Below, in pieces: positions 8,640 to 50,620 of a DNA stretch of 64,000 nucleotides. A program made the position numbers and the translations under genes. Location: contig NZ_JACHHJ010000002.1 of the NCBI RefSeq assembly GCF_014207655.1, forward strand, positions 62,001 through 126,000, written 5' to 3'. The notes under the pieces were generated by a model that was given only the letters and a program-made list of their open reading frames with translations, did no database searches and was not told the DNA's origin. Origin of the DNA: Geomicrobium halophilum (lineage in GTDB: Bacteria > Bacillota > Bacilli > Bacillales > Marinococcaceae). Numbering within the stretch: the first letter of the stretch is position 1; every line of letters begins with the position of its first letter.

Positions 8640-8646
8640 TGGAATC

Positions 8647-8990: not shown

Positions 8991-9134
8991 ATGACTCAAA
9001 CGGAGGATCAACGTGTTGAAAACCTATACTGTATAAAGGATGCACTGTTCTGTTTGTGGCACTTAAAAAATGCTGTTCGTGGCGGTATATTTTTTGAATA
9101 CGCTGCGCTTTACATGGAGTGGCGGATGGGTTAG
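8991..9134 (+). CDS. Possible small protein
   Basis: A 47-residue frame from an ATG preceded by AAAGGATGAGG. The product (MTQTEDQRVEN at the start, ALYMEWRMG at the end) resembles nothing I know. The flanking 8.7-9.9 kb stretch is mostly non-coding debris, so this may be chance or a gene fragment. Confidence 0.25.
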   Translation: MTQTEDQRVENLYCIKDALFCLWHLKNAVRGGIFFEYAALYMEWRMG

Positions 9135-9230
9135 GCTAATTGCCCAGAAAAGCTTGTTGCTCTGGTCTTTTCAAAAAAATCTGTCCGCAGAGGCTCCATG
9201 TCAAGCGACAAAATCAGAATGAATAAATTA

Positions 9231-9263
9231 AAAGACTGCTACTAAATTGGAGCAGTCTTTTTT
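9231..9263 (+). terminator. Intrinsic terminator
   Basis: AAAGACTGCT, a 9-base loop, AGCAGTCTTTTTT. It ends whatever transcript crosses the debris region; no clear gene precedes it. Confidence 0.7.
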
Positions 9264-15669: not shown

Positions 15670-15873
15670 TCAAAGACATGTACTTCCAAAGAAATTTCAT
15701 CCAAGCACTACTCTTCTTTGGAGTTCACCAATATGATGACGCTTAGCAAGTACTAACACAAAAAAACTTACCCGATTTTGTCCCTCCTAAAATTTTCTAT
15801 AGTTTTTTTAATTAAGTATTGTTACAATATATTATATGTGAGAAAATTAGAAAAAATACAGGAGGTTATTGAA

Positions 15874-20111: not shown

Positions 20112-20251
20112 TTAGTCTACAAGATGTTTTCTTTTGGCCCAATCATAATTGCCTTCATAATTATAAACTATACCATCGTCTAACCAAGAAATACTCGAAA
20201 ACATATTCAATAGATATCGATCATGAGATACTTGAATGATTAGATGTGGTA
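20112..20251 (-). pseudogene. ABC-F ATPase C-terminal fragment
   Basis: A minus-strand frame reads PHLIIQVSHDRYLLNMFSSI then SWLDDGIVYNYEGNYDWAKR and stops at 20112. The VSHDRY H-loop and the following segment are typical of the second ATPase domain of ABC-F proteins. Only about 45 residues remain. The left end of glcP runs into it in another frame, so a deletion or rearrangement joined the two. Confidence 0.6.
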
Positions 20252-21414
20252 TACCTCATTCTCCATCTTTTAAGAATGAATATGGAAAGAATGATTAAAA
20301 CAATACAAACCCCCATGAATAAATACATTGTTATTGTTCCTCCTCCAAATTCGATTGTAGGTCCAATAACTAACGAGAATATAGATCCTCCTAAGCTTGC
20401 AGATCCTATAAAAAGAGTAGAAGCTGTTAATGATGCTCCTTCCCCTTTTAATTGTTCGGTAAAGTTAAACAATGAAATAGGAAAAATTCCAGCTAGTATG
20501 AAACCGATAAGAAAAACATTTATGAGTAGAAATCCCCCATTTTGAATAACTGTTATTGTCCCTAAAGTAATCAATGAAATAAACGTGGCAAACACAATAA
20601 ATACATAGTTAGGAATTTTATTTACTAATGACCCAATAATCAATCTACCAATAATCATACCTAACCAGAACGCCGATATACTGTAAAGATATACACTTGT
20701 TTCAGGTAGTAATTCCTGAATGAGTAAAGGTAGATAGTTGGCAAAATTCGTTTCCAACCCTGCGTAAAAAAAAGCAAAAACTGAGAACAATGCAATTACA
20801 CCAATATTTCCTTGCCAATTTAAAGTTTTCTTATTCGTCTTCTCGCTATACCGTTCTACATTTTTATCGAATAATTTAAGTTGAGAATGGTATTTTAAGT
20901 AAAATACCATATTAAAGAGGACAAGAACACAAAGCCCATACAAAATATATCTCCAGTCCAAAGATAAATAATTAGAGTAGTTAATTAATAATGGAAAACT
21001 TAAGGCCCCTATTCCAAAAGCTACTTCTAATATGGAAATAGCACGATCTCCATTATCTTGATCTAAAGTTAATGAACCAGTCGTCGACTCTAATGATCCT
21101 GATGAAACTCCAACTAAAAAACCCATACACAAAATTGACCATAAATCTAGAGAAAGCGTGATTCCGAATATAGACATAAACAATAGTCCTTGAAACGTAA
21201 ATATTGTCAGCAATCTGTTACTTTTTTGAATGATAAAAGGGGAAATGACGATCCCGATTAAAAAGCCTGCAAACTGGAAAAATATAAGAACCCCTCCCAT
21301 TGAGGGGGATATTCCTCCTTCTTCAATGAGCAAAGGTAACAAACTTCCAAATAAAACGTGCATAGAACCTACCATAAAATAACAAATCAATCCATAGCTC
21401 ATTAATTTTTTCAC
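20221..21414 (-). CDS. glcP: GlcP-like MFS sugar transporter
   Basis: 397 residues, about 12 membrane helices, FGSLLPLLIEEGGISPSMGG at the N-terminus and no long central loop. Position as last gene of the ntd operon matches B. subtilis glcP, a glucose/mannose:H+ symporter needed with ntdABC. Here it could import the sugar or move the amino-sugar product. The last residues TTSNHSSIS come from foreign DNA (ABC-F remnant), so the natural C-terminus is replaced; the membrane core is intact. Confidence 0.8.
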   Translation of the reverse strand: MKKLMSYGLICYFMVGSMHVLFGSLLPLLIEEGGISPSMGGVLIFFQFAGFLIGIVISPFIIQKSNRLLTIFTFQGLLFMSIFGITLSLDLWSILCMGFLVGVSSGSLESTTGSLTLDQDNGDRAISILEVAFGIGALSFPLLINYSNYLSLDWRYILYGLCVLVLFNMVFYLKYHSQLKLFDKNVERYSEKTNKKTLNWQGNIGVIALFSVFAFFYAGLETNFANYLPLLIQELLPETSVYLYSISAFWLGMIIGRLIIGSLVNKIPNYVFIVFATFISLITLGTITVIQNGGFLLINVFLIGFILAGIFPISLFNFTEQLKGEGASLTASTLFIGSASLGGSIFSLVIGPTIEFGGGTITMYLFMGVCIVLIILSIFILKRWRMRYTTSNHSSIS

Positions 21415-21470
21415 CTTATCACCTCCAAAAAAGAGGTATAAAAATACCAGGTTCTAACCCCACCATTTTA

Positions 21471-22526
21471 TTAACGTGAAGTAATTGTTTCTAGAGATCT
21501 TTTAGAAGCTTGAGCTTTCTGAAAAACATTAGCAAGTGTAATCTGTGTTCTTAAACCATCTTCAAAGGTAGGGGTATCCATATACGGGTAAGAGGAAGGG
21601 AATAACCAATCCCTTAACTCATTCCTAAAGGAGTCTGACCAACCATGAAATTCATTTATTGGATCTGTTAAAAGTGGCGGAGATAAATCGATTCTTTCCT
21701 CTTCCATACCATTTTTAATTATTAGAGTATTATTATCTTCATTAGAATGATATCTAACCTCTTTTTCACTTCCCAGAATATTGATAAAGAAGCCACATCT
21801 TTCTTTAGATGTTACTTTTGATGTTACGATGTTCGCAAAAGCACCATTTTCTAAGGAAAAATACACCTCTGTGTGATCATCTACAAAAACTCTTCGTTTC
21901 TCCTTTTCTGTTACATTCGTTTCCATTTTTACTCGAATACTTTCATGGTCAATTTCATTATTTGTTAGGTACCAAATGAGGTCAACTAAATGAACTCCTA
22001 AATCACCAAAAGCTCCACTAGTTAGTCTACTGTTAACATCATCCTTCCAAGTGAAGGAATTTTTCCTTAAGGCACTATCTTTTTTGAAATGAAGAGTAAT
22101 ACGAATAATGTCACCAAGTTCCTTTTTATCAATTAAATCCTTTAATTTGGAAACATAGTAAAGATAACGGTAATTGAATCCCATTATTATACGTTTATTA
22201 CTTTTGTTAATTACATCCATTATTTCTTTAGCTTCTTCTACTGAGGTAGACATTGGCTTTTCGCATAAAATATGTAAATTGGAATGAACAGCCTCTAGGA
22301 TATGATCTTTATGGCAATAATTAGGTGAAGCAATAATAACACCCTCTATATCCAAAAGTAGGTTTTCTAATTGCTCGTAAAAATCCCCTCCAAATTTTTC
22401 AACCAATAATTTGCCTTTATCCTTGTTAATGTCATATACTCCTTGAAGTTCCACTTCTTTTATTGTACTGAGAGTTTTTGCATGAATCTTTGCTATATTA
22501 CCTGCTCCGATTATCCCAATTCTCAT
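21471..22526 (-). CDS. ntdC: NtdC-like sugar-phosphate 3-dehydrogenase
   Basis: Gfo/Idh/MocA family, 351 residues from the ATG at 22526 (AAAGG upstream; an ATG at 22544 lacks a site). NAD-binding motif GIIGAGNIAKIHAKT at residues 4-18, the conserved CEKPMS near residue 91 and FGDLGVHLVDL with the catalytic Asp/His near residues 170-177. NtdC oxidises glucose-6-phosphate to the 3-oxo sugar, the first step of kanosamine synthesis. Length and neighbourhood fit. An IS110-type gene separates it from ntdB. Confidence 0.85.
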   Translation of the reverse strand: MRIGIIGAGNIAKIHAKTLSTIKEVELQGVYDINKDKGKLLVEKFGGDFYEQLENLLLDIEGVIIASPNYCHKDHILEAVHSNLHILCEKPMSTSVEEAKEIMDVINKSNKRIIMGFNYRYLYYVSKLKDLIDKKELGDIIRITLHFKKDSALRKNSFTWKDDVNSRLTSGAFGDLGVHLVDLIWYLTNNEIDHESIRVKMETNVTEKEKRRVFVDDHTEVYFSLENGAFANIVTSKVTSKERCGFFINILGSEKEVRYHSNEDNNTLIIKNGMEEERIDLSPPLLTDPINEFHGWSDSFRNELRDWLFPSSYPYMDTPTFEDGLRTQITLANVFQKAQASKRSLETITSR

Positions 22527-22669
22527 TTTGAAAAAACCTTTCATCTAATATTTTTCGTCTTTTACAAACGAGGTTATCTCTTTGCTTGAAGCATTCTACC
22601 TTCTACAGTATTTATATTCATAAAGTTTAACTGGAACAAATCCCTCGTTTCTCCGTTATTTCAGAATCA

Positions 22670-23494
22670 TCAGGAATAACATATATACTCCTTAACGTAG
22701 TGATCCACCTGAGTCCATTGATTCTTAAGAATACGATACTGACTCATGAGCATATTGATTTCAACTTGAACCATTTTGGTCCCCTGAGTTACTCCAACCG
22801 AACGTTGGGCCGTTTGCTTCAATAAGTCAGCCTTTTTTAGACTTAGTTTCCATATAAGCGCAATATTTTCTGTATTCATCCCCATGATATCTTCCGGAAG
22901 TGGCAAATAAGTTAATGCATGAATCACATCATTACATTCCCAATTGTTAAACAATGTCGTTAATTCCGGGAAATAGTAATCAATCCATTCGTCAATTTGT
23001 TTACGAGTATCTTGTAACTTCGATAAAAGATCGTTGCGAACTCTGATTCCTTGCTGTAATTCAGCATAAATGCCTTCCGGGAGATTCGGTATCGTATAAT
23101 GGCTGTTTTTAATAAGCTGCGTAATAACATACGTAAATTCATTATTAAATAGGGAAGGGTCACTAAATTCCTTGGATTCTTTGATGTGCGCCGGATTGAC
23201 AATAACGGGTAAAAAGCCTTTGGATTTAGCATAATATGCTATGTTCATCCAATGGTTATTAGTTTCTGCCATGCCCAAAATCACCTGACGGCTCCTATCA
23301 ACATTTGTTGCTGTGATCCAATCAACCAGTCGATGAAAACCATCGATATCATTGTTAAAGGCTAATCGTTTGCTTAAATGCCCATCGTAACAATCAAAAG
23401 AACGGGCAAAATTCGTCTCTTTAAAATGATCAATCCCTACAATGAGTGGTTCTTTGGAAATTGTTTTGTTTTTTAGATTTGGCTGATTCCCCAA
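22670..23494 (-). pseudogene. IS110-family transposase, defective
   Basis: 274 residues, open without stops. The DEDD domain of IS110-type recombinases is recognisable: LIVGIDHFKETNFAR (first Asp), GMAETNNHWMNIAYYAKSKG (Glu), VIVNPAHIKESKE. Where the family has an aspartate-rich segment (N-D-x-K-D-A), this copy reads NNEFTYV, so the last catalytic aspartates are gone. The C-terminal Transposase_20 domain with the catalytic serine is missing (normal length is over 400). It sits between ntdB and ntdC in the same orientation, so the operon may still be read through. Confidence 0.75.
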
Positions 23495-23556
23495 AAGGTT
23501 TCCTCCTTCTGCTAACTAAATACAACAGCTTAGCACTCAAACGGGAAAATCTGAAA

Positions 23557-24414
23557 TTAATGACCGAAATTCTCTTTTAAGATGTTCAATATTCCTTTCG
23601 TGTATGGATTGGAGGTTACTTTTTCATATTGTTTTTTGGCATCAGTGGTAGCATTATCGAGTAAATATCCGTGCCCCACTTTTGATAGCATTTCCAAATC
23701 ATTACCACTATCTCCAAATGCAAATGTATATTCCATACCTACCTTAAATTTTTGGTTGATAAATTCTACTATTGCTGCTTTCCCTGTATTTTTGGGGATA
23801 AAATCGATATCATATGCTCTTTCGGGGTCACCAGCTAACGGATTACAAATGTTAATATTACAATCCATTTCCTGCTTATAGGCGAAATCTCTGATCATTT
23901 CTATATTATGTTTATCTGTAAGATCGTCTATCATGTAGTAATAATAGTTCTTTTTAAATGATGAAGAACCTAATTGGGTCTGAGGTGTAATCTCAATCTT
24001 GTGTAAAGCTTCCAAGTCTTTGACTATAGCGTTAACATTCTCTTGGTTAAAGTTCATGTTCTTTAGTCGATACACCCATTCTTGATCCGGATAAAAATTT
24101 CCGTCATTCTTGACCCAATAAAGCATTGTCCCCAAATCACAGGCCACAAAATGGGGCATGATTTGATGAATGCCGGTTTCCAACTTTTGAATAACTGAAT
24201 CAAGACTACTACCAGTAATCACCCCGAAAAGAACTTGATGATTTTTAACAATGTGCTCCATGTAATTTTCGAACGCCTGTATTGAGGTTTTTTCTTCATC
24301 GGTTATTTTGTGAGAATAAAGCGTTTCATCTAAATCAGAGTAAACGATATATTTGATACTATTAACATCATCATACTGTCGAAGTGTAGTCTTTTTGGGA
24401 TTATGCCAATTCAT
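23557..24414 (-). CDS. ntdB: NtdB-like kanosamine-6-phosphate phosphatase
   Basis: 285-residue HAD phosphatase. The nucleophile motif is YSDLDETLYS with Asp27 and Asp29; FGVITGSS is motif II and AFGDSGNDLEML motif IV. A C2 cap domain occupies the middle. NtdB removes phosphate from kanosamine-6-phosphate to give 3-amino-3-deoxy-glucose. It overlaps ntdA by 14 bases, indicating coupled translation. Known family length is 282. Confidence 0.86.
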   Translation of the reverse strand: MNWHNPKKTTLRQYDDVNSIKYIVYSDLDETLYSHKITDEEKTSIQAFENYMEHIVKNHQVLFGVITGSSLDSVIQKLETGIHQIMPHFVACDLGTMLYWVKNDGNFYPDQEWVYRLKNMNFNQENVNAIVKDLEALHKIEITPQTQLGSSSFKKNYYYYMIDDLTDKHNIEMIRDFAYKQEMDCNINICNPLAGDPERAYDIDFIPKNTGKAAIVEFINQKFKVGMEYTFAFGDSGNDLEMLSKVGHGYLLDNATTDAKKQYEKVTSNPYTKGILNILKENFGH

Positions 24415-25720
24415 TTCGTAAAGCCTCCACTACTTGATCTTGTTCTTTTAGTGTGAATTGGGGGAATAAAGGTAAGTGTAGTAGCTCTGAATGAACTAAT
24501 TCGGTATTACTTAAACTTTGTCGTTTGTTTTGCAAGTAAGAAATATTTTGTTGATGGGACAAATATGGGTAATACACATCTGTTTGTACCTTATAATTAT
24601 CTTGTATTCTTTGTTTGATAGAATTTCTTTGATTGTGATGAACTCTTATTGAAAATAGGTGCCATACATGATCATAGGTGTTCTCTGGTAAAGAAATCTT
24701 TCCCTCTTTTTCTAAGATATTTAATTTTTCAATATATCGTTTTGCTAATAACGAACGCTTAAAGTTATTAAGAGTTAAATATTTAAATCTCTCAAGACCA
24801 ATAGCAGCTTGGAAATTGTCCATTCTCGCATTAAATCCATATTTGGTTTCTTTTACATTTTTCTCCCCAACAGAAAAACCATGATAGGATAATCGCTTAC
24901 ATTGTAATGATAGTTCCTTATCGTTTGTCAATATGGCTCCAGATTTTCCGCATACGCCTAAATTCTTGTAGGGATTGAAACTTAGAACCAGGAGATCACT
25001 GTATTCACCTAAGCTTTCACTGCCAATGGCCTGACAACCATCTTCAATGACTGTTAAATTGTAGGTATCAGCAACTTTTCTTATTGCCTGTTGATCAGGT
25101 TGCCGTCCATAAAGGTCTACTGGTAAAATCGCTTTGGTTTTTCTTGTAATGAGAGCAGGAATTTTAGATGCATCTAAGCAATACGTATCCTGATCTATAT
25201 CGACCCAAACAGGATGAGCCCCCATGGACATGACTGCATTTTCAGTTGCAGCAAAGCTATTCGAAGGCATAATAACCTCATCTCCTGCTGAAACACCTGC
25301 TGCTAATAAAGCAATACTGAGCCCCGTAGTTCCGCTAGAAGTAGTAACACAATGAGAAAATCTCGTATATTCTTTTAAGGCTTCTTCGAATCTATTCACA
25401 TATTCTCCGCTAGTATATTGGCCTGTAGGCAGTACTTCTTCGACGATTTTAAGGACATCACCGATTTCTTCTTTTCCGATTAAGCGATTAACAGGAAGAA
25501 ACTCCACTTCATCTGAATCTACATCAGTTTCTGACATGGATAAACTTTCAAAAAGATGTGCTTTAGACACTAAATCAGGAAGGTTCTCTAGTTTTTGTAT
25601 CATTTTTCCATTCGCCAAAGATTCCTGAAGCTTTAGTGAAACATGTCTCCCCTCAATAAGTAGGTCAGTAACTTCATTAATGTAAGAACTATGTTCCGTT
25701 AATTTCTCTTCAATAACCAA
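24401..25720 (-). CDS. ntdA: NtdA-like 3-oxo-glucose-6-phosphate aminotransferase
   Basis: 439 residues, DegT/DnrJ/EryC1 family of PLP aminotransferases. SSGTTG binds the cofactor phosphate (about residues 128-133), IEDGCQ holds Asp227, and FNPYKNLG has the Schiff-base Lys252. The 80-residue N-terminal extension is also found in B. subtilis NtdA (441 residues). It makes kanosamine-6-phosphate using glutamate. The start is a TTG with GGGGGGA eight bases upstream. First gene of the leftward operon, divergent from ntdR. Confidence 0.88.
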   Translation of the reverse strand: MVIEEKLTEHSSYINEVTDLLIEGRHVSLKLQESLANGKMIQKLENLPDLVSKAHLFESLSMSETDVDSDEVEFLPVNRLIGKEEIGDVLKIVEEVLPTGQYTSGEYVNRFEEALKEYTRFSHCVTTSSGTTGLSIALLAAGVSAGDEVIMPSNSFAATENAVMSMGAHPVWVDIDQDTYCLDASKIPALITRKTKAILPVDLYGRQPDQQAIRKVADTYNLTVIEDGCQAIGSESLGEYSDLLVLSFNPYKNLGVCGKSGAILTNDKELSLQCKRLSYHGFSVGEKNVKETKYGFNARMDNFQAAIGLERFKYLTLNNFKRSLLAKRYIEKLNILEKEGKISLPENTYDHVWHLFSIRVHHNQRNSIKQRIQDNYKVQTDVYYPYLSHQQNISYLQNKRQSLSNTELVHSELLHLPLFPQFTLKEQDQVVEALRNELA

Positions 25721-25771
25721 TGATTTGTTCCCCCCAGTTAAAACTACATTTATTTAATTACATGTTATAAT

Positions 25772-25787
25772 CTGGGAACAATCCCAG
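25772..25787. promoter_or_regulatory. Palindromic operator candidate for NtdR
   Basis: CTGGGA-ACAA-TCCCAG lies in the 91-bp gap between the divergent ntdA and ntdR, right beside a TATAAT-like box (25765-25770). LacI-type regulators bind such palindromes; NtdR is known to activate ntdABC in response to the product. Confidence 0.55.
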
Positions 25788-25811
25788 GTCAACATTTTTT
25801 GAGGTGATAAA

Positions 25812-26804
25812 ATGACGACCATATACGACATTGCCTCCAAAGCAAATGTTTCAAAGTCTACTGTTTCACGAGTACTTAATCACCATCCTTATGTCAGTGA
25901 GAAAAACAAACAAAAAGTATGGCAAGTGATTGAAGAATTAAATTATACACCTAATGCCCTTGCCAGAAGTTTTAGGTTCATGAGAAACAAGACTATTGCA
26001 GTCATTATTCCCAACCTTTATCATTCATTTTTTAGTTTACTGGCTTCTGGTATCTCTAAAGAATTAAGGGCACAGGGGTATAAAACGGTGATTAGCGAAA
26101 GTTTCTACAATGCGGAAAATGAGAAAGTTATTCTGGAAATGCTTAAATTTAAAGAAATTGAAGGCATTATTCTGTGCTCTATAGAAAATGATTGGGAGTT
26201 TATAGAAGAGTATCTCAATTATGGACCGATTGTACTGTGTAATGAATTTCACGAAGAAGCAACGATTCCTGTTATTTGTTACGATGAACGAGGAGCAACT
26301 GCAGAAGCCCTCAATCACTTGCTAAATCAGGGGCATACAAGAATAGGTTTCTGTTATGATGTTTCAGATAGTCCGTTACAGAAAATGAGACAAGAAAGTT
26401 ATGAACAATTTCGAGATCACGATTTCCAAGAAACAAAAAAATGGTTTTATCCTGAATGCTTCACGATCAAAGATGGTATGAATGTCGTGAAAAATCTTGT
26501 CAAACACCCACAAAATGATCGCCCAACTGCGTTATTTACGGGAAACGATTATGTTGCCGCAGGGGTTATAAAAGAGCTGAAACAAAGGGGATTAGACGTT
26601 CCCAGAGAATTTGGTGTTATAGGATATGATGACCACCAAATCTGTTTAGCAACCCATCCCACCATATCAACAATTCATATCCCTATAGATCAGTTGGGTG
26701 TTTATACTGCTAAAACATTAATAAAAACCTTGTCTGAAAATAAACCTTTACAAAGAGAAGTCAAAACTTTCGAAGGTAAATTAATCATACGTGAATCCAC
26801 CTAA
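25812..26804 (+). CDS. ntdR: NtdR-like LacI-family regulator
   Basis: 330 residues from an ATG with GAGGTG upstream. The N-terminal helix-turn-helix TIYDIASKANVSKSTVSRVL (residues 3-22) and hinge helix (ALARSFR) are followed by a periplasmic-binding-protein-type sensor domain. B. subtilis NtdR (about 332 residues) activates ntdABC-glcP when neotrehalosadiamine or kanosamine is present. The divergent position is the same here. Confidence 0.86.
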   Translation: MTTIYDIASKANVSKSTVSRVLNHHPYVSEKNKQKVWQVIEELNYTPNALARSFRFMRNKTIAVIIPNLYHSFFSLLASGISKELRAQGYKTVISESFYNAENEKVILEMLKFKEIEGIILCSIENDWEFIEEYLNYGPIVLCNEFHEEATIPVICYDERGATAEALNHLLNQGHTRIGFCYDVSDSPLQKMRQESYEQFRDHDFQETKKWFYPECFTIKDGMNVVKNLVKHPQNDRPTALFTGNDYVAAGVIKELKQRGLDVPREFGVIGYDDHQICLATHPTISTIHIPIDQLGVYTAKTLIKTLSENKPLQREVKTFEGKLIIREST

Positions 26805-26814
26805 AATTAAGAGT

Positions 26815-26843
26815 GAGCCAACCGCTAATATTGAGGGTGGCTC
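26815..26843 (+). terminator. Terminator after ntdR
   Basis: GAGCCAACC, an 11-base loop, GGGTGGCTC, starting ten bases after the stop. No strong T tract follows. Confidence 0.55.
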
Positions 26844-26844
26844 C

Positions 26845-26872
26845 TAAATTCCCGAAAAGGTATATTCCAAAA
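26845..26872 (-). repeat. Dispersed transposon-end-like repeat, copy D (partial)
   Basis: On the minus strand TTTTGGAATATACCTTTTCG then GGAATTT. It shares the AATATACCTTTTCG core with copies C and E. Confidence 0.45.
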
Positions 26873-26990
26873 TACTTTAACAATGAACGCGACATCCCTC
26901 TGGACCCAGTCTTCCATCGCCAGCTTACTTGCCGAATCGAGCGCACGATTAGCGACCATGGTGGGTATAGGGGGGGGACTCCGAGATACG
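26850..26990 (-). pseudogene. Transposase fragment, IS4/IS1634-like
   Basis: The minus-strand frame reads MVANRALDSASKLAMEDWVQ then RDVAFIVKVFW, which looks like the N-terminal helical part of IS1634-type DDE transposases (AxxRxLxPxSKLAxxxW). Only about 45 residues are left. The nearest stretch upstream (LDVDVT) resembles the debris at 9.73 kb. Confidence 0.4.
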
Positions 26991-27011
26991 TGTAACATCT
27001 ACATCTAATAT

Positions 27012-27066
27012 AAAAAAGCTCACCCCAAGAGGAAATTAGACAGTGAAAGAGGGTGAGCTTTTTTTA
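27012..27066. terminator. Strong intrinsic terminator
   Basis: AAAAAAGCTCACCC, a 24-base loop, GGGTGAGCTTTTTTT. It can act in both directions and closes the transposon debris. Confidence 0.75.
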
Positions 27067-27422
27067 GAAGGTGATATATACCCTATGAAATATATCTCCC
27101 GTTATTAAATACTTATGTTGCTTAAAGTAACAAATAAAATTTCCTATCATGGAACATATTTCAGCAAGGTTTTTCAATAGCTGAAAGTGATTCATTAATT
27201 CACATTACATTAATTCAGTGATTTATCTTACATTTAAAATTTTTATATCCATGATCGGATAATCCATACACTTCTTCTCTTTACCCAATCCTGAACATTC
27301 AAAATGAATATTCAGAAATTGCTTGGCAACATAAAAAGATAGGCATCGCCTACCCTTTAAACCCCTTATCATCTCTTGTTAGTGAGAGGTGTTATGGCTA
27401 TTCAATTACCTAATTTCCATGT
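27067..27422. other. Gap downstream of the peptide cluster
   Basis: No gene seen. It holds the leftward terminator of the peptide cluster at 27332-27355 and AT-rich filler. Confidence 0.5.
27332..27355 (-). terminator. Terminator of the leftward peptide cluster
   Basis: On the minus strand GGTAGGC-GAT-GCCTATC is followed by TTTTTAT, about 70 bases beyond the oxygenase stop. Confidence 0.7.
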
Positions 27423-28322
27423 TTATTGGTTACCCTTTGCTTTTTGTTTATTGATTGTCTCTTTCGCGTATTTTTCTGATTTTTCTTCCACATTGCTGTA
27501 TATTTCCCGCACCTTATCTTTTACCTTCTGCAAATGCTCTTCGCATTCATCATCTGTGTAATAGAATGGGGGTAGTGACTTTGATAACTCTGCATCATCC
27601 TGGATAGATTTAAGCATTGCCTTTTGAACCCAGTTTCCAATTGTTACTGGCTCAAATGTAATTGTTATATGACAACTTAATGTATCTGTAGCTTCTGCAG
27701 AGTGCGGTGCTCCTTGCGGTAAGTAGATCATATCACCTACATTAACATCTTCATAAATAGATGGAATACCGATTTTATCAACATCAACCTCACCGCCTGA
27801 GTTTTGTTGATCGTAAATATCATAAACCTTCCATCTTTTTGATCCTTCACATTGAATGACTAATTGCTCTGTTCGATCGATATGCGGCACAAAACCACCT
27901 TGGTTTGGTGGTGTAACGACCGCAAATGCTGAACACTTTGTTCCTATAGAATCACCTAATTTTGCGCAAAATCTTCCCATTGACGGATAAAATTCTTCTA
28001 CCGCAGTCAATAAAAGCGAAGAACCTTCACTAAGTGCAACCGATGCTTTAGCTCCATCCATAACACGACCGATCGCTTTCGAACCGACCACCAATGGACG
28101 CGAATAGAACCTATGCGGTTGAGGCACACCGTCTTTAATCACACGAAAACACTCTTCCGGTATACGAGGTTCAACGAGCATATGCTTAATTGCCTCCATA
28201 CCGAAAATTTCCCTTGTCCAGCCATCTTTCGGACTTGTAAGAATTTGTCCTTGTTCCGTCCATAATTCATTATTTCTTATTTCATATAAGGCATTAATGG
28301 CATTTTGAACTGCTTTCTCCAT
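27423..28322 (-). CDS. JmjC/cupin-type 2-oxoglutarate oxygenase, putative peptide hydroxylase
   Basis: 299 residues from an ATG with GAGGAGG upstream. The core matches JmjC (ribosomal-oxygenase-like cupin_4) enzymes: GGFVPHIDRTEQLVIQCEGS with the iron ligands His147 and Asp149, KRWKVYD, and the distal His207 in LPQGAPHSAEA. Known family members hydroxylate side chains of proteins using Fe(II), O2 and 2-oxoglutarate. Residues 1-100 form a helical N-terminal part, perhaps for substrate binding; the C-terminus is a Lys/Glu helix. As last gene of a cluster with two short peptides it most likely hydroxylates their tail (for example Asp, Arg or Pro). Confidence 0.75.
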   Translation of the reverse strand: MEKAVQNAINALYEIRNNELWTEQGQILTSPKDGWTREIFGMEAIKHMLVEPRIPEECFRVIKDGVPQPHRFYSRPLVVGSKAIGRVMDGAKASVALSEGSSLLLTAVEEFYPSMGRFCAKLGDSIGTKCSAFAVVTPPNQGGFVPHIDRTEQLVIQCEGSKRWKVYDIYDQQNSGGEVDVDKIGIPSIYEDVNVGDMIYLPQGAPHSAEATDTLSCHITITFEPVTIGNWVQKAMLKSIQDDAELSKSLPPFYYTDDECEEHLQKVKDKVREIYSNVEEKSEKYAKETINKQKAKGNQ

Positions 28323-28351
28323 TTTCCCGCCTCCCGCCTCCTCTATACAAA

Positions 28352-29233
28352 TTACATTTCAAATACTAAAAGTGTGAAAGGCATCTGATCCGCGCCACCG
28401 CCAATGACATTGCTAGGTACTTCTAAAAGTTTTTCATAACCGGATCTTTCAGCAACGGAAATGACTTCCGACTCTGTCCATATACGATCTATCGAAAGAC
28501 AGAATTCATGCTGTAGCTCTCCCGATTCATTTGTCTTTGTTGCGATTACAGGCTGAATTAACTGTTTTTTACTAGCGTCATAATACAAACTAAGCCAAGC
28601 CATAATATCCTCTCCCGAACTCTTAAAGGGATGACATAATATAGGCCCTGTAAACTTCTCTTTAAAATCATCGGTTGCTTTGTCGTTAAACACAGGTAAA
28701 AATAAGTATTGGCAACCTCGATTTTTAAGCGTCGAACGTAAATTATTAAAGAATATCTCAATTTTTTGATCGCTAACAAAACAGTTAATCGAGGCGGAAG
28801 ACATAACTGCAACTTGGGTTTTTTCTTGTGGGATATTTTTTTCAAACTCTACAGCATCTAAAATATCAGCTTGAACCCAGGCAATATTAGAATAGCGCTT
28901 CTTAGCTTCCTCGATCTGATCGGTAGAGTAATCGACGCCATAAACCTTATAACCTTTGTTATCTAAATGGTTTGTCACTCTTCCATCTCCGCAACATAGA
29001 TCAGCGATGTAGTTTACGCCTTTCTGAACATCGAACACTTCAAGACCATGCTCGATAAGTTCCAAATCCCACGTTACTCCTTCGTTTAAGTCTTCAATAT
29101 AATCACGGAATACACCGGAATAAAGGCTATCCCTTATAATCAAATGTTCTCCCATTTCTTTAATCGCGCGCTGAAAAGGGAAAAACTTTTTATATTCGCT
29201 CACTTCATCTATAACTTTTGTTAAAGTGTTCAA
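28352..29233 (-). CDS. Class I SAM-dependent methyltransferase of the peptide cluster
   Basis: 293 residues. Motif I is YIADLCCGDGRVTNHL (about residues 75-90), then GVDYSTDQIEEAKKRY (motif II) and VQADILDA (motif III). An N-terminal helical extension of about 70 residues could hold a substrate. It lies 29 bases upstream of the oxygenase gene and downstream of precursor 1. A methyl ester or N-methyl group on the peptide is possible; small-molecule methylation cannot be excluded. Confidence 0.75.
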   Translation of the reverse strand: MNTLTKVIDEVSEYKKFFPFQRAIKEMGEHLIIRDSLYSGVFRDYIEDLNEGVTWDLELIEHGLEVFDVQKGVNYIADLCCGDGRVTNHLDNKGYKVYGVDYSTDQIEEAKKRYSNIAWVQADILDAVEFEKNIPQEKTQVAVMSSASINCFVSDQKIEIFFNNLRSTLKNRGCQYLFLPVFNDKATDDFKEKFTGPILCHPFKSSGEDIMAWLSLYYDASKKQLIQPVIATKTNESGELQHEFCLSIDRIWTESEVISVAERSGYEKLLEVPSNVIGGGADQMPFTLLVFEM

Positions 29234-29276
29234 TAGAGTTATCCCTCCATTTTTCAGTATATGTATTACAACGGGT

Positions 29277-29300
29277 AGAGAAGGGGGATACCCCTTCTCT
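29277..29300 (-). terminator. Stable hairpin after precursor 1
   Basis: AGAGAAGGGG-gata-CCCCTTCTCT: a perfect 10-bp stem 18 bases beyond the precursor stop. On the minus strand no T tract follows, so it may be a partial attenuator or an RNA 3'-end stabiliser that separates abundant precursor mRNA from the enzyme genes. Confidence 0.65.
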
Positions 29301-29317
29301 TTAAAATGTAACCTGAT

Positions 29318-29455
29318 TTAAAATTCCTCTTCTTCAATTTCACCTGGTTGTCTAATGCTGATATCAGGATAAGATGCTTGCCCTCTCACCACTTCTGTTT
29401 CATTATCAATCGTATTGTCTTTTGCAAACGCCACTAGTTCCTCAACCTTTGTCAT
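29318..29455 (-). CDS. Putative precursor peptide 1
   Basis: 45 residues from an ATG with AAGGAGGTGAA upstream. The N-terminal part (VEELV, FAKDNT) is helical and acidic like a leader. The second half ends SYPDISIRQPGEIEEEEF. Precursor 2 has the same SYPDISIRQP tail and leader words, differing mostly in the joining region, the pattern expected for a modified peptide with a conserved core or recognition tail. It lies between the exporter and the two modifying enzymes. No family recognised. Confidence 0.75.
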   Translation of the reverse strand: MTKVEELVAFAKDNTIDNETEVVRGQASYPDISIRQPGEIEEEEF

Positions 29456-29479
29456 GGGTATTCACCTCCTTGTTAAAGT

Positions 29480-30700
29480 TTAAGATTCCACCTCAATCTT
29501 TGTGTTTGTTGAATTTCTCAAAGTAAGGAGCGGTAAAGCAGTTGATGAAGTAATAACGATCATTAGACCCGCGAAAAATCCGATGGTCGTCGCCGGGAAA
29601 AATTCAAGCAGAAATCCTGTTGTCATCATGGATACAGCCATTATGACGTTTGACATCGTATCGCTTAAAGCAAATGCTCGACCGTGGACATATTTAGGTA
29701 CAACGAGCATCGTTAATGAGGTGAATGAAGCATTTCCGATCCCTGCCCCGATCGTAGCAAGTAAGATAAAAAACGCTGCCATCCACAAGTTTGATGATTG
29801 ACTAACAGCCATGTGTGATCCACCTTCGATGACTGAGGCGAAAATGACCGCAAAAACTAGAAACTTCTTAAATAAATGCGCCACCAATCCACTAATGAGA
29901 AAGCCGATGCCTAGTGATGCATACAGGATACCGACACCTTGATCTCCGGCGCCGAATGTTTGGTAACCATAGACAGCTATTAAAACATTGATGGCACCAC
30001 CGCCGATTGGCCATAGAAAAGCCTGAATAGCAACAATTTTGATAAGCAATGAATCTTTAAATTCTTTCCAAAAGGTTGTTTGCACCGCTTTCTCTTTTTG
30101 GTCTCCTTCGTCCTCTTCACTTGATGAGAACTTAATTCTTAAAACCAAAAGGCCTGAGATAAGGAATGTCAAAGCATTTATAATAAACGCCAATTGCGTA
30201 CCGATTAGCGCACTAACCACACCGCCAATCGAAGCGCCAAGCGTCATATTAATTCCGCCTAGTGACTGATCGATTGAATTTGCTACAGGTATGTTTTTAT
30301 CATTAACAATTTGGGGAATGAGTGATTGTCTTGCAGGCATTGATAATGCTGAGAAAAAAACCAATGCTACGGTGACAATGTACGCAATCCAAACTGTTTC
30401 CTCAGAAATAATAAATAACAAGGATAATGCTAGGAAAATTCGTGAGAAATCCGATACGACTAGAATAATCTTTTTGTTTATTCGGTCTGATAAATACCCC
30501 GCAATGGGCCCCATAATTAAAAACGGAAGCGTTCGGGCGGCTAAAGTGATACCGACCGCAACGCCTGATCCAGTAATTTGAAGCAACAAACTAAGTATAG
30601 CTACACTGCTAAACCAATCACCAACACCACTTATAAAATTAGCAGTTACCAGTTTTCTATATGATTTCTCGCGCTTAAGAACCTGATATATTTCTTTCAC
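29480..30700 (-). CDS. MFS exporter of the peptide cluster
   Basis: 406 residues, GTG start with AGAGGT upstream, about 12 helices. N-terminus NFISGVGDWFSSVAILSLLL and loop GYLSDRINKK are typical of macrolide-efflux or EntS-type MFS exporters; VANSIDQSLGGINMTLGASI is the matching central motif. Flanked on both sides by precursor genes, it is the obvious exporter and immunity candidate. No peptidase domain is fused, so leader removal, if any, needs another protease. Confidence 0.82.
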   Translation of the reverse strand: MKEIYQVLKREKSYRKLVTANFISGVGDWFSSVAILSLLLQITGSGVAVGITLAARTLPFLIMGPIAGYLSDRINKKIILVVSDFSRIFLALSLLFIISEETVWIAYIVTVALVFFSALSMPARQSLIPQIVNDKNIPVANSIDQSLGGINMTLGASIGGVVSALIGTQLAFIINALTFLISGLLVLRIKFSSSEEDEGDQKEKAVQTTFWKEFKDSLLIKIVAIQAFLWPIGGGAINVLIAVYGYQTFGAGDQGVGILYASLGIGFLISGLVAHLFKKFLVFAVIFASVIEGGSHMAVSQSSNLWMAAFFILLATIGAGIGNASFTSLTMLVVPKYVHGRAFALSDTMSNVIMAVSMMTTGFLLEFFPATTIGFFAGLMIVITSSTALPLLTLRNSTNTKIEVES

Positions 30701-30780
30701 TGTCTAAACCTCTTCGTAGAAAAATTATCTCGACGCTATTGAAGGTTCAAGAGATGCTGACATTTTTTTGAATTAATATT

Positions 30781-30808
30781 AAAATAAAAAGGGGATATAT
30801 TCCCCTTT
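30781..30808 (-). terminator. Terminator/attenuator after precursor 2
   Basis: On the minus strand AAAGGGGA-ATATA-TCCCCTTT is followed by TTATTTT, about 30 bases past the precursor 2 stop and 80 before the exporter. It would give a short abundant precursor transcript with some readthrough. Confidence 0.75.
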
Positions 30809-30836
30809 CTCTCTTTTGCCAAGGTAAAGTAACGGA

Positions 30837-30977
30837 TTAGAATCCCTCTTCATCAATTTCAATTGGTTGTCTGATACTGATATCAGGATAAGAAGATTGT
30901 GCTCTCACAATTTCTTCTGTTTCAGTATCAGGCGTGTTGTCTTTTGCAAAATGCACTAGTTCCTCAACTTGTGTCAT
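30837..30977 (-). CDS. Putative precursor peptide 2
   Basis: 46 residues, ATG with AAGGAGGTGAA upstream. Same layout as precursor 1: VEELV and FAKDNT in the leader, one inserted residue in the joining region (EEIVRAQS against EVVRGQA), then SYPDISIRQP and the acidic end EIDEEGF. Even the 5' leader DNA (TTAAACTTTAA before the ribosome site) is shared, so the pair arose by recent duplication. First gene of the leftward cluster. Confidence 0.75.
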   Translation of the reverse strand: MTQVEELVHFAKDNTPDTETEEIVRAQSSYPDISIRQPIEIDEEGF

Positions 30978-31210
30978 AGGTTTTCACCTCCTTATTAAAG
31001 TTTAAAACCTCTACTTTTATATTACTTTACAAACCTATGATTACCATCATCTCAATCTTCTAATCTTTTTAATTGTTTTAATATTTTTGTAATTAATATA
31101 TATGCCCTCCTTTCATTTGTATATATTGTAAAATACTAACATAATTGGTTGACTTATTTCAACTTTCTATATATTTTATGAGGGGCACCTTTGTAAAATG
31201 GCCAAACTTT

Positions 31211-34256: not shown

Positions 34257-36416
34257 TTAGGTTTTCATTTTCTTTTTCGGAAATTCCATTTGTAGTCCTT
34301 CATCAGTGAGTATCAAATGAGCATCAAATGTATTTCCCTTTTTGCTTTCAAATCCTTTGATAACACTTGTTATTCCTTTTTCACAAAGGGCTTTCACTTG
34401 TGTTTTTGTGATCGTTTTTCCTACAAATTTTTTGGGAAACGTTTGCTTACATCCATTTCGATATTCGGAACAACCATAGAATTTTTTTCGATCCATGATA
34501 TTCCCTATTTGACAAGACGGACATACAGCCATACTTCCTTGGTCTTCGATAGCCTTTTTAGCGTATTCAGTATTGACGTTTTGAAGATCTTCTTGTGCTT
34601 GATGGACAAGTTTGTTGACGAATTTCTTTGTGTTTTCGATAAAATCATGCTTCTCTGCTTCTTCTTGACCAATTCGTTTTAAAAATTGCTCCCATTTCGC
34701 CGTCATTTCAGGTTTGGAAAGCAGTGTTCCTTCGACGGATTGACATAAAACATTTCCTTCCTCCGTGACAGATACTTTGTTCTTCTTCACTTCGATATAT
34801 CCTTGCTTCATTAACGCTTCAATGATGGAGCTACGGGTTGCTTCAGTACCTAATCCTTCGACTTCTTTCAATGTTTCTTGTGCTTCCTCATCATCGATGT
34901 TCTTTCCACATGTTTTCATTAACGTAATCAATTGACCTTGGGTGTACGGTTTTGGTGGCTTTGTTTTCCCTTCCTTGATGGTAACATCAGCCTTAACTTC
35001 TGTACCTTTTTCCAATATCGGCAAGGATTGATGTTCATTGTTTTCATTGTCCTCTTGACCGTTATCTTGATGGATCTGTTTCCAACCTTTGTGTACTTCC
35101 GTTTTTCCTTTACTGATAAAATCAATGCCGTTTACATTTGTGGTCATCAATGTTTCGTCATATATATAATCACTGCAAAACATACCGAGCATTTTTTTGA
35201 TGATTTCCATATAAATATTTATTTGCTTCTCATCTAGTTTTTGTAGAGTGTGGTAATCAGGGATTTTCTTTGTTGGAATAATAGCATAATGTTCTTGTAC
35301 TTTACTTGCATCAACATAACGCTTTTGCGGATCAGTGGTTTCAGGTTCAAAAGAGAAATCAACGATGGATTGGTACCTCTTCATCTTTTCCTTTAGGTAA
35401 GTAAATTCATTGTCTGTGATATGCTGCGTATCCGTTCTTGGATAAGAGACGAGTTTTAGGGGGTTATCGTAAAGGCTTTGCACGATTTTTAGAGTTTCGC
35501 TTGGGCTATATTTAAATTTTTGATTAGCTAACGTCTGTAAACTCGACAATGAATGTAACTTTGGCGGCTTATTTCGTTTTTCGTTCTTTTCAATAGAAGA
35601 AATATAACCTTTTGTTTGCTGTTTTTCGCTGACATTGGCTTCCTGTAAATGCAATTGAGCATCGACATTACTTTTGTATCTTCCTTTGACTTTTCCTTGA
35701 TATCGTCCTTTGTCTGTATCAAAAGCTCCCTCGATTTCAAAAAATGGTTCTGATTTGAAGTTTTCGATGGATTTCTGACGATCATAAATGAGTTTAAGGG
35801 TTGGCGTTTGGACTCGACCAACGCTCCATGCCCCTTTTTTCTTTAACCCCTGTTGTTGCAATAAAACGCTGTACAAGCGAGTCCCTGTCATTCCAACCAT
35901 CCAATCACCGATTTGACGAGCTTGAGCTTCCTGATACAAAGGTTGATATGAACCTGCATCTTGAAGGTTCTTAAAACCATTGATGACTTCATGTTTTTCC
36001 AAACTGTTAATCCATAGGCGTTTCATGGGCTTATGATCGTTTCCCGATACTTCGATGATACTACGGGCAATGTTTTCCCCTTCTCGGTCACAATCGGTCG
36101 CAATAATGATCTTAGTCGCTTCGTCTAATAGACGTTTAACAATGTTGTATTGATCTTTGGTTTTTGTTGTTGGTTGAAACTCAAATGATTCAGGCACAAT
36201 GGGCAGATGATCCAGCGACCATTGTTTCCATTCTGATTTGTATTGAGAAGGTTCTTTTAGTTCAACTAAGTGCCCAACACCCCATGTGATTTTTGTTCCA
36301 TTTGGAAATATCGAATCGTTGAGGATTTCAATATATCCATCCTTCTTTTTGGTCGAAAAAGCACTTGCATAGGCTTGAGCTTGGCTTGGTTTTTCTGCCA
36401 AAATCACGGTGCTCAT
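34257..36416 (-). CDS. topB: DNA topoisomerase III, plasmid type
   Basis: 719 residues, ATG with AAAGGAGA upstream. Toprim motif DCDREGE at residues 108-114 and active-site Tyr325 in VSYPRTD; the C-terminus has one zinc-ribbon-like segment (CPSCQIG..., YGCSEYRNGCKQTF). It relaxes and decatenates DNA through single-strand passage. Plasmids of the pSK41 kind and many ICEs carry topB next to their transfer genes, as here, directly behind the coupling-protein gene. Confidence 0.92.
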   Translation of the reverse strand: MSTVILAEKPSQAQAYASAFSTKKKDGYIEILNDSIFPNGTKITWGVGHLVELKEPSQYKSEWKQWSLDHLPIVPESFEFQPTTKTKDQYNIVKRLLDEATKIIIATDCDREGENIARSIIEVSGNDHKPMKRLWINSLEKHEVINGFKNLQDAGSYQPLYQEAQARQIGDWMVGMTGTRLYSVLLQQQGLKKKGAWSVGRVQTPTLKLIYDRQKSIENFKSEPFFEIEGAFDTDKGRYQGKVKGRYKSNVDAQLHLQEANVSEKQQTKGYISSIEKNEKRNKPPKLHSLSSLQTLANQKFKYSPSETLKIVQSLYDNPLKLVSYPRTDTQHITDNEFTYLKEKMKRYQSIVDFSFEPETTDPQKRYVDASKVQEHYAIIPTKKIPDYHTLQKLDEKQINIYMEIIKKMLGMFCSDYIYDETLMTTNVNGIDFISKGKTEVHKGWKQIHQDNGQEDNENNEHQSLPILEKGTEVKADVTIKEGKTKPPKPYTQGQLITLMKTCGKNIDDEEAQETLKEVEGLGTEATRSSIIEALMKQGYIEVKKNKVSVTEEGNVLCQSVEGTLLSKPEMTAKWEQFLKRIGQEEAEKHDFIENTKKFVNKLVHQAQEDLQNVNTEYAKKAIEDQGSMAVCPSCQIGNIMDRKKFYGCSEYRNGCKQTFPKKFVGKTITKTQVKALCEKGITSVIKGFESKKGNTFDAHLILTDEGLQMEFPKKKMKT

Positions 36417-36455
36417 CAGATGATTCTCCTTTCTTTATAAAAGAAACTAGTGTTT

Positions 36456-36500
36456 ATCAAACAAACTAATATTTATTAAATAAATATTAGTTTGTTTGAT
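36456..36500. repeat. 45-bp palindrome between traG and topB
   Basis: Two perfect 20-base arms starting ATCAAACAAACTAATATT, with a 5-base centre. It begins 13 bases beyond the traG stop and ends 39 bases before the topB start. It lacks a GC-rich stem, so it is more likely an operator or RNA processing site than a plain terminator. Confidence 0.7.
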
Positions 36501-36513
36501 TTCCTCCCCTTTA

Positions 36514-38763
36514 TTACATTGGAAGCTCTTCTTCATCACCTTTTTTACGTTTTCGAAAAGGTTCATCTTCGATTAAATGATTCTCGATGTTTTTCATTTC
36601 ATCTTCAATCGCATTGATGTCTTCATCAGGTGTGATGTTGGAATCCTTTTTATCTTCGGTATTATTAGTAGACAACGTGACAGCCTTTTTCCTGTTATCG
36701 TTTTGATCTTCATTGGTAGCATGATCTTCATCAGTCATTGTTTCCTCGTCTTTTTCTTCATCATGCGCTGACAATTCAACAACAAGATCTTTAATCGCCT
36801 TTTCATCATCTTTGGTGATTTCTTTATCTTGGTCTAGGGATGTTTCGATTTCTTTTGTTTGTTCTTGGATAGCTTCGAGATTGTCTTCTTCATCGACAAT
36901 ACCCGTATCGTTTTGAAGCAACTTCGTAAGTTCCGAATCCGATAACTCAATATCGCCGTCTGATTGGTTGCTTTGAGAAACACCCGATTCTTCTTGTGTT
37001 TCTTGTACCATTTCTTCTTGCTGAAAGGCTTCGGATGCTTCTTCTTGGCGATCTTTTTCTTTCATATCCTCGTTTCGATACTTGTCATAATCATTCACAT
37101 AATCGCCGTAAATATTTGACTGAAAAGCTTTTTCCACTTTTAATGGATCATAACCGGCAATAAACAAATAGGCGGCTGTGCCTTTATTATTAGAAAGCTC
37201 ACCAGGTGTAATTAACGGTCGTTTAACCACTTGCTCAGAGCTACTATAAGAACCATCTTTGGTGAGTGTTCCGTGCTGCTTAGAACCTGTTGTGTGTTTT
37301 ACAGTTGTATCCCCTGCCAGTTTAGAAAAATACTCCGCCGTTTTGGTATCTTTCGTTCGCAAAAACAAGGTTGAATCGTGATTATTAATGATTGTTCGAG
37401 CTTGCTCATGACCATACATATCCTTTTTCTCAATCTGAGCAAAATCCTGAATAATGGTTTGCATGGACATTCCTTGACCTCGACAAGTAGATAATGTTTC
37501 ATCATAGCCGTTTAACCGACCGATATTTGCAAATTCGTCTAAAAGAAATGTCGTATGGATCGGCAACATACGGTTCTTTTCATTTCCAGCAATCTCATAA
37601 AAAGTATCGATTAACTGATCAAAAAAGGTGGCGGTTAAGGGTTGAACAGGATTTGTTTTCATTGGGATTCGAATATACAAAATGCTTTTTCTCTTTTGAA
37701 AGTCATAGATATTAAAATCACTTTGAGCTGTCATATTAGCAACATCTTGTAGTGAAAAGATGGCGGTTTGTTGCGCAAACGATGATAATATACTCGCTCG
37801 TGTGTTTCCTGATTGAGTGCTTGCATCTTTTAAATACTGATAAGCAGGATGTTCGTGACCAATTTCTTCACATAATTCCTTTAAATATTCTTCATCCTCA
37901 TTAATCTGATTAAATGTATTCTTTACATCTGTAAACGTGGCATTTGATTTTTTACCTTTCACATAAATAATAATTCCTGTCAGTAAATCTTTGGCTGTGT
38001 TGAAGAAAAAATCTTCTTTTGTATCTTTTGAACTGTTTCTGGATATCGTACCTGCTAATTTAATGGCATCAAAATCATTTCTTACATAATCTAATGGATT
38101 ATATTTGGCACTTAATAAAGTAACAAAATCGATATGGAATACATCATAGCCCTGATCTCGTTTTATGGTTGCTGTTTGATCATAAAGCTCGCCTTTGGGA
38201 TCCGTAACGATAATCGTTTGTTCTCGCATGTTGATCAAATTCGGGATCACAAATCCTTGCCCTTTACCACTACCAGAGGAACCAATTACAAGCACATTAC
38301 GGTTATCAATGTCTGTATTTTCTCCCATGATTAGCAATTTCTTTTTCTTTGGGATCTTTCCTAAAATGATCCCTTGTTCCACTTGTAGTGTATCTTCAGG
38401 GATATTTCCATATTTGTTATTTTTTGATAACATCTTTCCATCTGTAAACTCTACCGGTGTTCCCCATTTAGCTGTTCCATGTATACCTAAATCTGATGCA
38501 TCCTCATAGGAATGTTTCAGAATGCTATAACGCAACACATGTAAGGTTGCTGCGATAATGATGAACGGCAAAATTATAAAGGCGGTGCTTAAATTTTCAT
38601 CCCCGTAAATATAGGTAAAAGTTGCCGATGGATCAATGAGCGCAGCATTGAAACTTTCAGCAGGTCCTATAAAGGCGAAGAGCGCTACCATTAACAAATA
38701 GGTGATAAGGATCCCTAGAAAGATTCCGAATCCTACAGGTTTCCATGATATTTTGCTGATCAT
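36514..38763 (-). CDS. traG: VirD4/TraG-type coupling protein
   Basis: 749 residues. Two N-terminal membrane helices (about 10-32 and 60-78), Walker A GSSGSGKG at 161-168, Walker B LLDEF at 407-411, and an acidic disordered C-terminal tail of over 180 residues. Coupling proteins bring the relaxase-DNA complex to a type IV secretion channel. Only mobA, traG and topB are present in this module and no channel genes are near, so it would borrow a channel, or the module is a fragment. Confidence 0.9.
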   Translation of the reverse strand: MISKISWKPVGFGIFLGILITYLLMVALFAFIGPAESFNAALIDPSATFTYIYGDENLSTAFIILPFIIIAATLHVLRYSILKHSYEDASDLGIHGTAKWGTPVEFTDGKMLSKNNKYGNIPEDTLQVEQGIILGKIPKKKKLLIMGENTDIDNRNVLVIGSSGSGKGQGFVIPNLINMREQTIIVTDPKGELYDQTATIKRDQGYDVFHIDFVTLLSAKYNPLDYVRNDFDAIKLAGTISRNSSKDTKEDFFFNTAKDLLTGIIIYVKGKKSNATFTDVKNTFNQINEDEEYLKELCEEIGHEHPAYQYLKDASTQSGNTRASILSSFAQQTAIFSLQDVANMTAQSDFNIYDFQKRKSILYIRIPMKTNPVQPLTATFFDQLIDTFYEIAGNEKNRMLPIHTTFLLDEFANIGRLNGYDETLSTCRGQGMSMQTIIQDFAQIEKKDMYGHEQARTIINNHDSTLFLRTKDTKTAEYFSKLAGDTTVKHTTGSKQHGTLTKDGSYSSSEQVVKRPLITPGELSNNKGTAAYLFIAGYDPLKVEKAFQSNIYGDYVNDYDKYRNEDMKEKDRQEEASEAFQQEEMVQETQEESGVSQSNQSDGDIELSDSELTKLLQNDTGIVDEEDNLEAIQEQTKEIETSLDQDKEITKDDEKAIKDLVVELSAHDEEKDEETMTDEDHATNEDQNDNRKKAVTLSTNNTEDKKDSNITPDEDINAIEDEMKNIENHLIEDEPFRKRKKGDEEELPM

Positions 38764-38782
38764 GTATTATCCTCCTGCTTTA

Positions 38783-40669: not shown

Positions 40670-40737
40670 TCGAATAACCTCCTTTTGATTTTTGATAAGC
40701 CCCGCTAGGATATTTGGCGGAAGACAAACATAAATAA

Positions 40738-50597: not shown

Positions 50598-50620
50598 TTA
50601 TGGAAATGGAAGGGAAGCGT

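Follow-up and report, generated by a model that had tools for sequence, protein, structure and literature searches.

A small gene cluster of Geomicrobium halophilum that probably makes, modifies and exports a Tyr-Pro peptide

What do two nearly identical short peptides, an exporter, a methyltransferase and an iron oxygenase do together on a mobile stretch of bacterial DNA? The question is raised by five open reading frames (ORFs) at 27423-30977 of a 64,000-nucleotide stretch of Geomicrobium halophilum (contig NZ_JACHHJ010000002.1, positions 62,001-126,000, assembly GCF_014207655.1), hereafter called the window. Judging from its sequence, we give a probability of roughly 0.8 to the reading that this is a small gene cluster for a ribosomally synthesised and post-translationally modified peptide (RiPP), which would make, modify and export a Tyr-Pro peptide. 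The kind of system is already known, as JmjC hydroxylases occur in RiPP pathways; the precursor family and the enzyme combination are new within it. All five ORFs lie on the minus strand in a single direction and are transcribed in the order P2, exporter, P1, methyltransferase, oxygenase, with the following features:

30984..30993, minus strand: ribosome-binding site AAGGAGGTGA of P2
30837..30977, minus strand: P2, putative precursor peptide of 46 amino acids (aa) ending in ...VRAQSSYPDISIRQPIEIDEEGF; an ORF 78% identical to P1, with relatives in two loci of the same order (genomes G187 and G222)
30786..30810, minus strand: hairpin with U-rich tail 3' of P2, terminator- or attenuator-like (z -1.9)
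29480..30700, minus strand: exporter of the major facilitator superfamily (MFS); Pfam MFS_1 1.7e-36, TIGR00900 6.9e-46 but under its cut-off
29462..29471, minus strand: ribosome-binding site AAGGAGGTGA of P1
29318..29455, minus strand: P1, putative precursor peptide of 45 aa ending in ...VRGQASYPDISIRQPGEIEEEEF; an ORF
29277..29300, minus strand: stable hairpin 3' of P1 (-22.3 kcal/mol for a 63-nt stretch, z -4.0)
28352..29233, minus strand: class I S-adenosylmethionine (SAM)-dependent methyltransferase, 293 aa; Pfam Methyltransf_25 2.7e-13
27423..28322, minus strand: JmjC Fe(II)/2-oxoglutarate (2OG) oxygenase, 299 aa; Pfam JmjC_2 1.3e-18

The initial annotation had described two peptides of 45 and 46 residues that share VEELV, FAKDNT and SYPDISIRQP before an acidic end, that flank the exporter, and that are followed in the same direction by the two enzymes; the ORFs, their coordinates and the Pfam matches bear this out. 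P1 and P2 are a real duplication. When the 3.5-Mb genome was searched with P1 at E <= 1, the only match besides P1 was P2 (E 2.2e-15), and the duplicated unit comprises the Shine-Dalgarno sequence AAGGAGGTGA, the gene and part of the hairpin. When the two genes are compared, 32 codons are identical (stop included), 4 differ synonymously and 10 non-synonymously. The resulting non-synonymous divergence (0.14) is below the synonymous one (0.36), albeit over only 45 codons, and this speaks against a decayed or cryptic cluster without a current product, as do frames that are all open, strong Shine-Dalgarno sequences and intact catalytic residues. Decay would fit the partial IS110 transposase at 22670-23494 and the other mobile genes of the region; we regard it as very improbable.

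In order to decide whether these genes belong together, the initial annotation had proposed a search for their co-occurrence, and this turned out in favour of the grouping: peptide and JmjC gene stand beside the methyltransferase gene in all three genomes with a full-length methyltransferase among 397 of the order. A methyltransferase profile search, which scored at most six candidates per genome, matched 21 genomes at E <= 1e-12; full-length orthologues are those of G. halophilum, G187 and G222 (E <= 1.0e-137), the other 18 genomes matching at 1.8e-15 or weaker with partial coverage of the model. JmjC orthologues (E <= 1.6e-62), sought in 299 genomes of the order, occur in the same three. Exporter, peptide, methyltransferase and JmjC oxygenase are grouped in that order in 3/3 cases. 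G187 has just these four, G222 adds an HExxH protein between peptide and methyltransferase and a 105-aa protein ahead of the JmjC gene, and the window differs from both by the second peptide ahead of the exporter. The peptide search across the 397 genomes returned the own genome and G187 (9.0e-7); the G222 peptide was missed by it and came to light when the locus was read. Within the data searched we saw neither of the patterns named beforehand as contrary to the proposal, namely enzymes that mostly lack such peptides or peptides conserved alone in unrelated contexts.

A fourth locus lies in another phylum, on plasmid pGnpA106 of Glutamicibacter nicotianae, the only plasmid record with a methyltransferase match at E <= 1e-8 (27.5%, 8e-14). 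It holds a 40-aa ORF ending in EAQAQYPR, the methyltransferase, an MFS protein, an unannotated 87-aa ORF and, with no JmjC gene, other probable iron oxygenases: a 212-aa protein in which HxD...H can be read by eye, without a significant family match and probably a 2OG oxygenase, and a 315-aa HExxH protein 31% identical to that of G222 (TIGR04267 E 0.0035 and, for G222, 2.8e-5, both under the cut-off). Since direct peptide matches are weak, the link between the window and Glutamicibacter runs via G222, gene order and the methyltransferase, and the locus is probably a more distant fourth member of the set. A short putative precursor is thus kept together with modifying enzymes and an exporter in 4/4 loci, and the RiPP interpretation is supported by these independent loci. 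The carriers within the order are each alone in their families by the methyltransferase profile (1/29, 1/9 and 1/41 genomes), and the phylum-level and class-level samples (398 genomes each) gave a match in the window's own genome only; samples at order, phylum, class and family level overlap, so that their counts are not independent. As the set is rare, scattered and kept together, with each carrier alone in its family, horizontal transfer of the genes is likely. In G187 a coupling protein of the TraG type is encoded 3.4 kb from the cluster.

Wider searches added little. P1 had no tblastn match among plasmids and phages at E up to 10; against plasmids at the same limit the Glutamicibacter peptide matched itself only and the G222 peptide nothing. 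Viral contig scans held no relative of the JmjC protein or of the peptide, and three short matches of 60-66 residues to the methyltransferase. A scan of genome contigs with two narrow patterns retrieved one locus, the G222 set. Relatives of the G222 HExxH enzyme occur in five plasmid records, one being the Glutamicibacter set; in three of the other four the gene tables resemble other systems and the adjoining small ORFs lack Q-x-x-Y-P. The window's genome had no match to the HExxH alignment, in a search without positive control.

Which part of the peptide is conserved? The initial annotation had pointed to the tail, and this holds in part: Gln, Tyr and Pro of Q-x-x-Y-P are invariant in the aligned peptides (P1, P2, G187, G222 and Glutamicibacter), which share [AG]-Q-[AS]-[SQ]-Y-P when the alignment is read by eye, whereas SIRQP becomes SIKQD or TVVDP or is absent in the relatives. 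Among all small ORFs of the loci, Q..YP occurs in 2/156 in L008, 2/143 in L009, which is that of G222, and 3/188 in L012, that of Glutamicibacter, and is therefore no diagnostic feature by itself; what is diagnostic is the position between exporter and methyltransferase. Residues around the motif seem to follow the oxygenase, in very few cases: Gln precedes Tyr-Pro in the two loci with an HExxH protein (G222 and Glutamicibacter) and Ser in the two without, and x-I-[ST]-[IV] follows Tyr-Pro in the three JmjC loci and is missing from the locus that lacks JmjC. The first association fits PflC and PosC, HExxH oxygenases of the Pseudomonas pfl and pos clusters that hydroxylate glutamines (PMC12636437; here and below, the cited papers are used for those parts of them that were at hand).

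Expression signals accompany the peptides as well. AAGGAGGT lies upstream of 4/5 peptide genes, and the fifth, that of G187, has AAAGGGGGTGA ahead of a TTG start three codons past the listed GTG. The hairpins claimed after both precursors stood up, strongly for P1 (z -4.04, 0/200 shuffles as stable) and moderately for P2 (z -1.90, 9/200, U-rich sequence next); all five peptide genes have one, with z of -4.0, -1.9, -4.8, -3.0 and -5.2. A scan for terminators gave 4 sites where 3.1 would be expected, and so is by itself no evidence for them. Neither the cluster region nor the window holds an Rfam family or a tRNA.

The oxygenase raises the question of its substrate. Its iron triad, His147, Asp149 and His207, had been described as intact and is invariant, with Lys162, across three aligned orthologues. 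In the profile match to NO66 (E 1.2e-17) the HxD motif, the lysine and the second His line up, so that the protein belongs to the JmjC Fe(II)/2OG oxygenases; Lys162 aligns with the NO66 lysine in G-x-K-x-W, and we take this lysine to bind 2OG. The solved structures nearest to it are NO66, MINA53 and the L16 arginine hydroxylase, which would favour a reading where oxygenase and methyltransferase modify a host protein in the manner of NO66 or of the L16 enzyme, with the peptides as unrelated accessories of a mobile element. The 3.3 kb between the cluster and a block of MobQ relaxase, coupling protein and topoisomerase count on the same side. Yet the structural similarity is confined to the core domain, neither PHROGs nor PADLOC holds a match to the peptides, the methyltransferase match to PADLOC mad2 (3.7e-12) covers residues 58-180 and thus a generic methyltransferase domain, and near-identical peptides on either side of an exporter fit precursors better. 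Moreover, no other protein of the genome matches JmjC_2 at E <= 1e-5, and this counts against a housekeeping enzyme standing there by chance; the family search had matches in 3/14 control genomes, Bacillus subtilis included. Modification of a host protein therefore appears far-fetched to us.

For the oxygenase, the order sample gave four matches, namely the own genome, G187 (50%, 5.1e-100), G222 (38%, 1.6e-62) and G171 (6.6e-6), and the last, 24% identical within a 540-aa frame, was dropped as a distant paralogue. There is a partial match to structure 7zcc (B. subtilis YxbC, E 4.2e-6), a link for which a literature search gave no lead. Plasmids hold 66 records, all below 60% identity and 56 of them from Streptomyces; among four examined, three have a pair of cupin genes next to YcaO-TfuA or M13 peptidases and the fourth is unannotated. 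The first, from Streptomyces sp. NBC_01006 (4662-9371, L015), combines a 57-aa ORF without YP, two cupin genes, YcaO and TfuA, and is likely a RiPP cluster of another type.

Do methyltransferase and exporter act on the peptide at all? The methyltransferases of G187, G222 and Glutamicibacter are 53, 41 and 28% identical to that of the window, and the exporters 73, 53 and 26%. The daptide methyltransferase model NF041820 (cut-off 175) gave 26.8 bits for the window and 35.1 for Glutamicibacter, both far below the cut-off, so that neither groups with the daptides. A fold search of the PDB with the predicted model listed the uncharacterised methyltransferase 3d2l first, then CypM, PsmD, CcbJ, glycine sarcosine N-methyltransferase, YunM and CgnL. 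Weaker family matches of the exporter include macrolide and siderophore exporters, and no such modified product is on record; both would suit peptides that are unmodified signals or regulators released by the exporter, with the two enzymes acting on a separate small molecule. Against this stand the union of methyltransferase, peptide and exporter in 4/4 loci though the oxygenase type changes, a cluster interior without any other biosynthetic gene, and peptides in which we see no secretion signal by eye. We thus consider signalling unlikely.

Several points weigh against a RiPP cluster and temper our estimate. The known loci total four, and for the peptides there is no matching model in Pfam or NCBIfam. 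Q..YP occurs in 4/654 window ORFs of 25-110 aa, of which two are P1 and P2 and two are other small ORFs. In shuffle tests of peptide pairs (2000 shuffles each) the score of the Glutamicibacter peptide was reached by 21 shuffles against P1 and 99 against P2, which is marginal, and that of the G222 peptide by 22, 1 and 10 against P1, P2 and G187, the pairing with P1 being the weak one; the match between the Glutamicibacter and G222 peptides beat all 2000. The predicted models of oxygenase and methyltransferase are poor (mean predicted local distance difference test 53 and 55, from two-row alignments), so that the methyltransferase fold matches, at template modelling (TM) scores of 0.37-0.49 to the query, are a hint at most. 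The window's cluster holds no leader protease and no recognised RiPP recognition element. The 105-aa protein of G222 and the 87-aa ORF of Glutamicibacter look PqqD-like by eye, a reading that found no support: neither matches a Pfam or NCBIfam family significantly, nor the PqqD-family protein of a Streptomyces globosus plasmid.

How might the RiPP cluster work? We infer that P2 and P1 are the substrates, each beginning with an N-terminal leader that is acidic and looks helical and continuing with a core around [AG]-Q-[AS]-[SQ]-Y-P-x-I-S-I and an acidic follower. The JmjC enzyme would hydroxylate a side chain within or directly after Tyr-Pro, and the methyltransferase would methylate the peptide, more likely on nitrogen, a weak judgement from its fold neighbours. 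Trimming would fall to a protease encoded elsewhere, and the MFS protein would export a short product and may confer self-protection. Through the hairpins that follow the peptide genes, precursor mRNA may come to exceed enzyme mRNA.

We also speculate, with somewhat less than even confidence, that the four loci represent a new RiPP class with an [AG]-Q-[AS]-[SQ]-Y-P core, a constant methyltransferase and exporter, interchangeable iron oxygenases (JmjC, HExxH or other 2OG enzymes) and plasmid transfer between phyla. The core would then vary with the oxygenase, Gln before Tyr-Pro going with HExxH and the x-I-[ST]-[IV] tail with JmjC, and the pathway would yield a methylated and hydroxylated Tyr-Pro peptide of very few residues. 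As no protease is encoded, backbone cleavage by an oxygenase is conceivable, and by analogy with PflC the oxygenase itself may cut.

The surroundings are of mixed nature. At 34257-40825 of the window lie a MobA/MobL-type (MobQ) relaxase, a VirD4-like coupling protein and a type IA topoisomerase, which resemble plasmid proteins of Parageobacillus, Geobacillus and Enterococcus, and at 50579-63535 a second conjugation-type module, Tn916-like by eye, with an FtsK/SpoIIIE protein, a Rep_trans initiator, an AAA_10 ATPase and a lysozyme-like/M23 protein. Sugar-type genes (MFS, Gfo/Idh oxidoreductase, HAD phosphatase, DegT aminotransferase, LacI regulator) occupy 20221-26804, with the partial IS110 transposase among them. 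Two proteins in tandem (244 and 207 aa), related by eye, stand at 15778-17132 next to an MFS-like gene; the former has a dTDP-sugar isomerase match that stays under the threshold (E 4e-4). Two further plasmids were noted: one of Mycobacteroides chelonae (4356-8164, L043) with a 47-aa ORF, YcaO, an HExxH-like protein and MFS, possibly a RiPP cluster, and that of S. globosus (5338-9852, L042), where a 45-aa ORF and the PqqD-family/HExxH-like protein adjoin a class I lanthipeptide set with sulfotransferase.

The JmjC-type enzymes of the BipG/PbsQ pathways act on ornithine (PMC12707348, PMC12257519). With its four genes and clear core motif, the present set is of a size that can be rebuilt in Escherichia coli, where it would reveal how a bacterial JmjC hydroxylase of peptides acts on a Tyr-Pro core; across the loci, the type of oxygenase and the sequence of the core seemingly co-vary, which makes them a natural set for comparison.

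How, finally, does the cluster compare with known systems? The initial annotation knew of no such cluster, and no description of this precursor family and enzyme set was found in the open-access papers that were searched; JmjC hydroxylases in RiPP clusters as such are already known (PMC12707348, PMC12257519), and bacterial JmjC homologues occur in RiPP-like contexts (PMC12710340). With NO66, MINA53 and the L16 arginine hydroxylase the window's enzyme shares the JmjC core and the HxD...K...H residues; it is shorter, at 299 aa, than their solved chains (373-489 aa), and the alignment ends at residue 213 to 284. Unlike ribosomal oxygenases it is clustered with peptides, and 3/299 genomes of the order have an orthologue of it, with a single distant match besides. 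CypM (cypemycin), YunM and CgnL (crocagin) are RiPP methyltransferases among the fold neighbours of the methyltransferase (TM about 0.4, low-confidence model). Among the 10 proteins at 20221-30977 that were scanned against Pfam and NCBIfam, no linaridin or crocagin enzyme was recognised, and with peptides that match no model the cluster does not group with the linaridins. The pfl and pos clusters, whose HExxH oxygenases act on Gln residues, resemble the HExxH loci described here, those of G222 and Glutamicibacter, which have Gln just ahead of Tyr-Pro where the others have Ser; they differ in another leader type, an MNIO-nitroreductase fusion (MNIO, multinuclear non-heme iron-dependent oxidative enzyme) and a GNAT protein where the present loci have a methyltransferase (PMC12636437). 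From the biphenomycin-type clusters the window's is set apart by its methyltransferase and by a Q-x-x-Y-P core in place of F-R-F; the MNIO, B12 radical SAM enzyme, arginase and TldD protease of that family are not among the 10 scanned proteins, the search covering these and not the rest of the genome, so that it falls outside the family. In those pathways BipG and PbsQ, JmjC-type or cupin-like enzymes, hydroxylate precursor peptides to give hydroxylated ornithine residues (PMC12707348, PMC12257519). What the loci described here have in common with them is a short precursor with its core near the C terminus, a JmjC or cupin-like hydroxylase, an MFS exporter (there BipB) and, in some members, an HExxH enzyme (there the alpha-ketoglutarate-dependent BipH).

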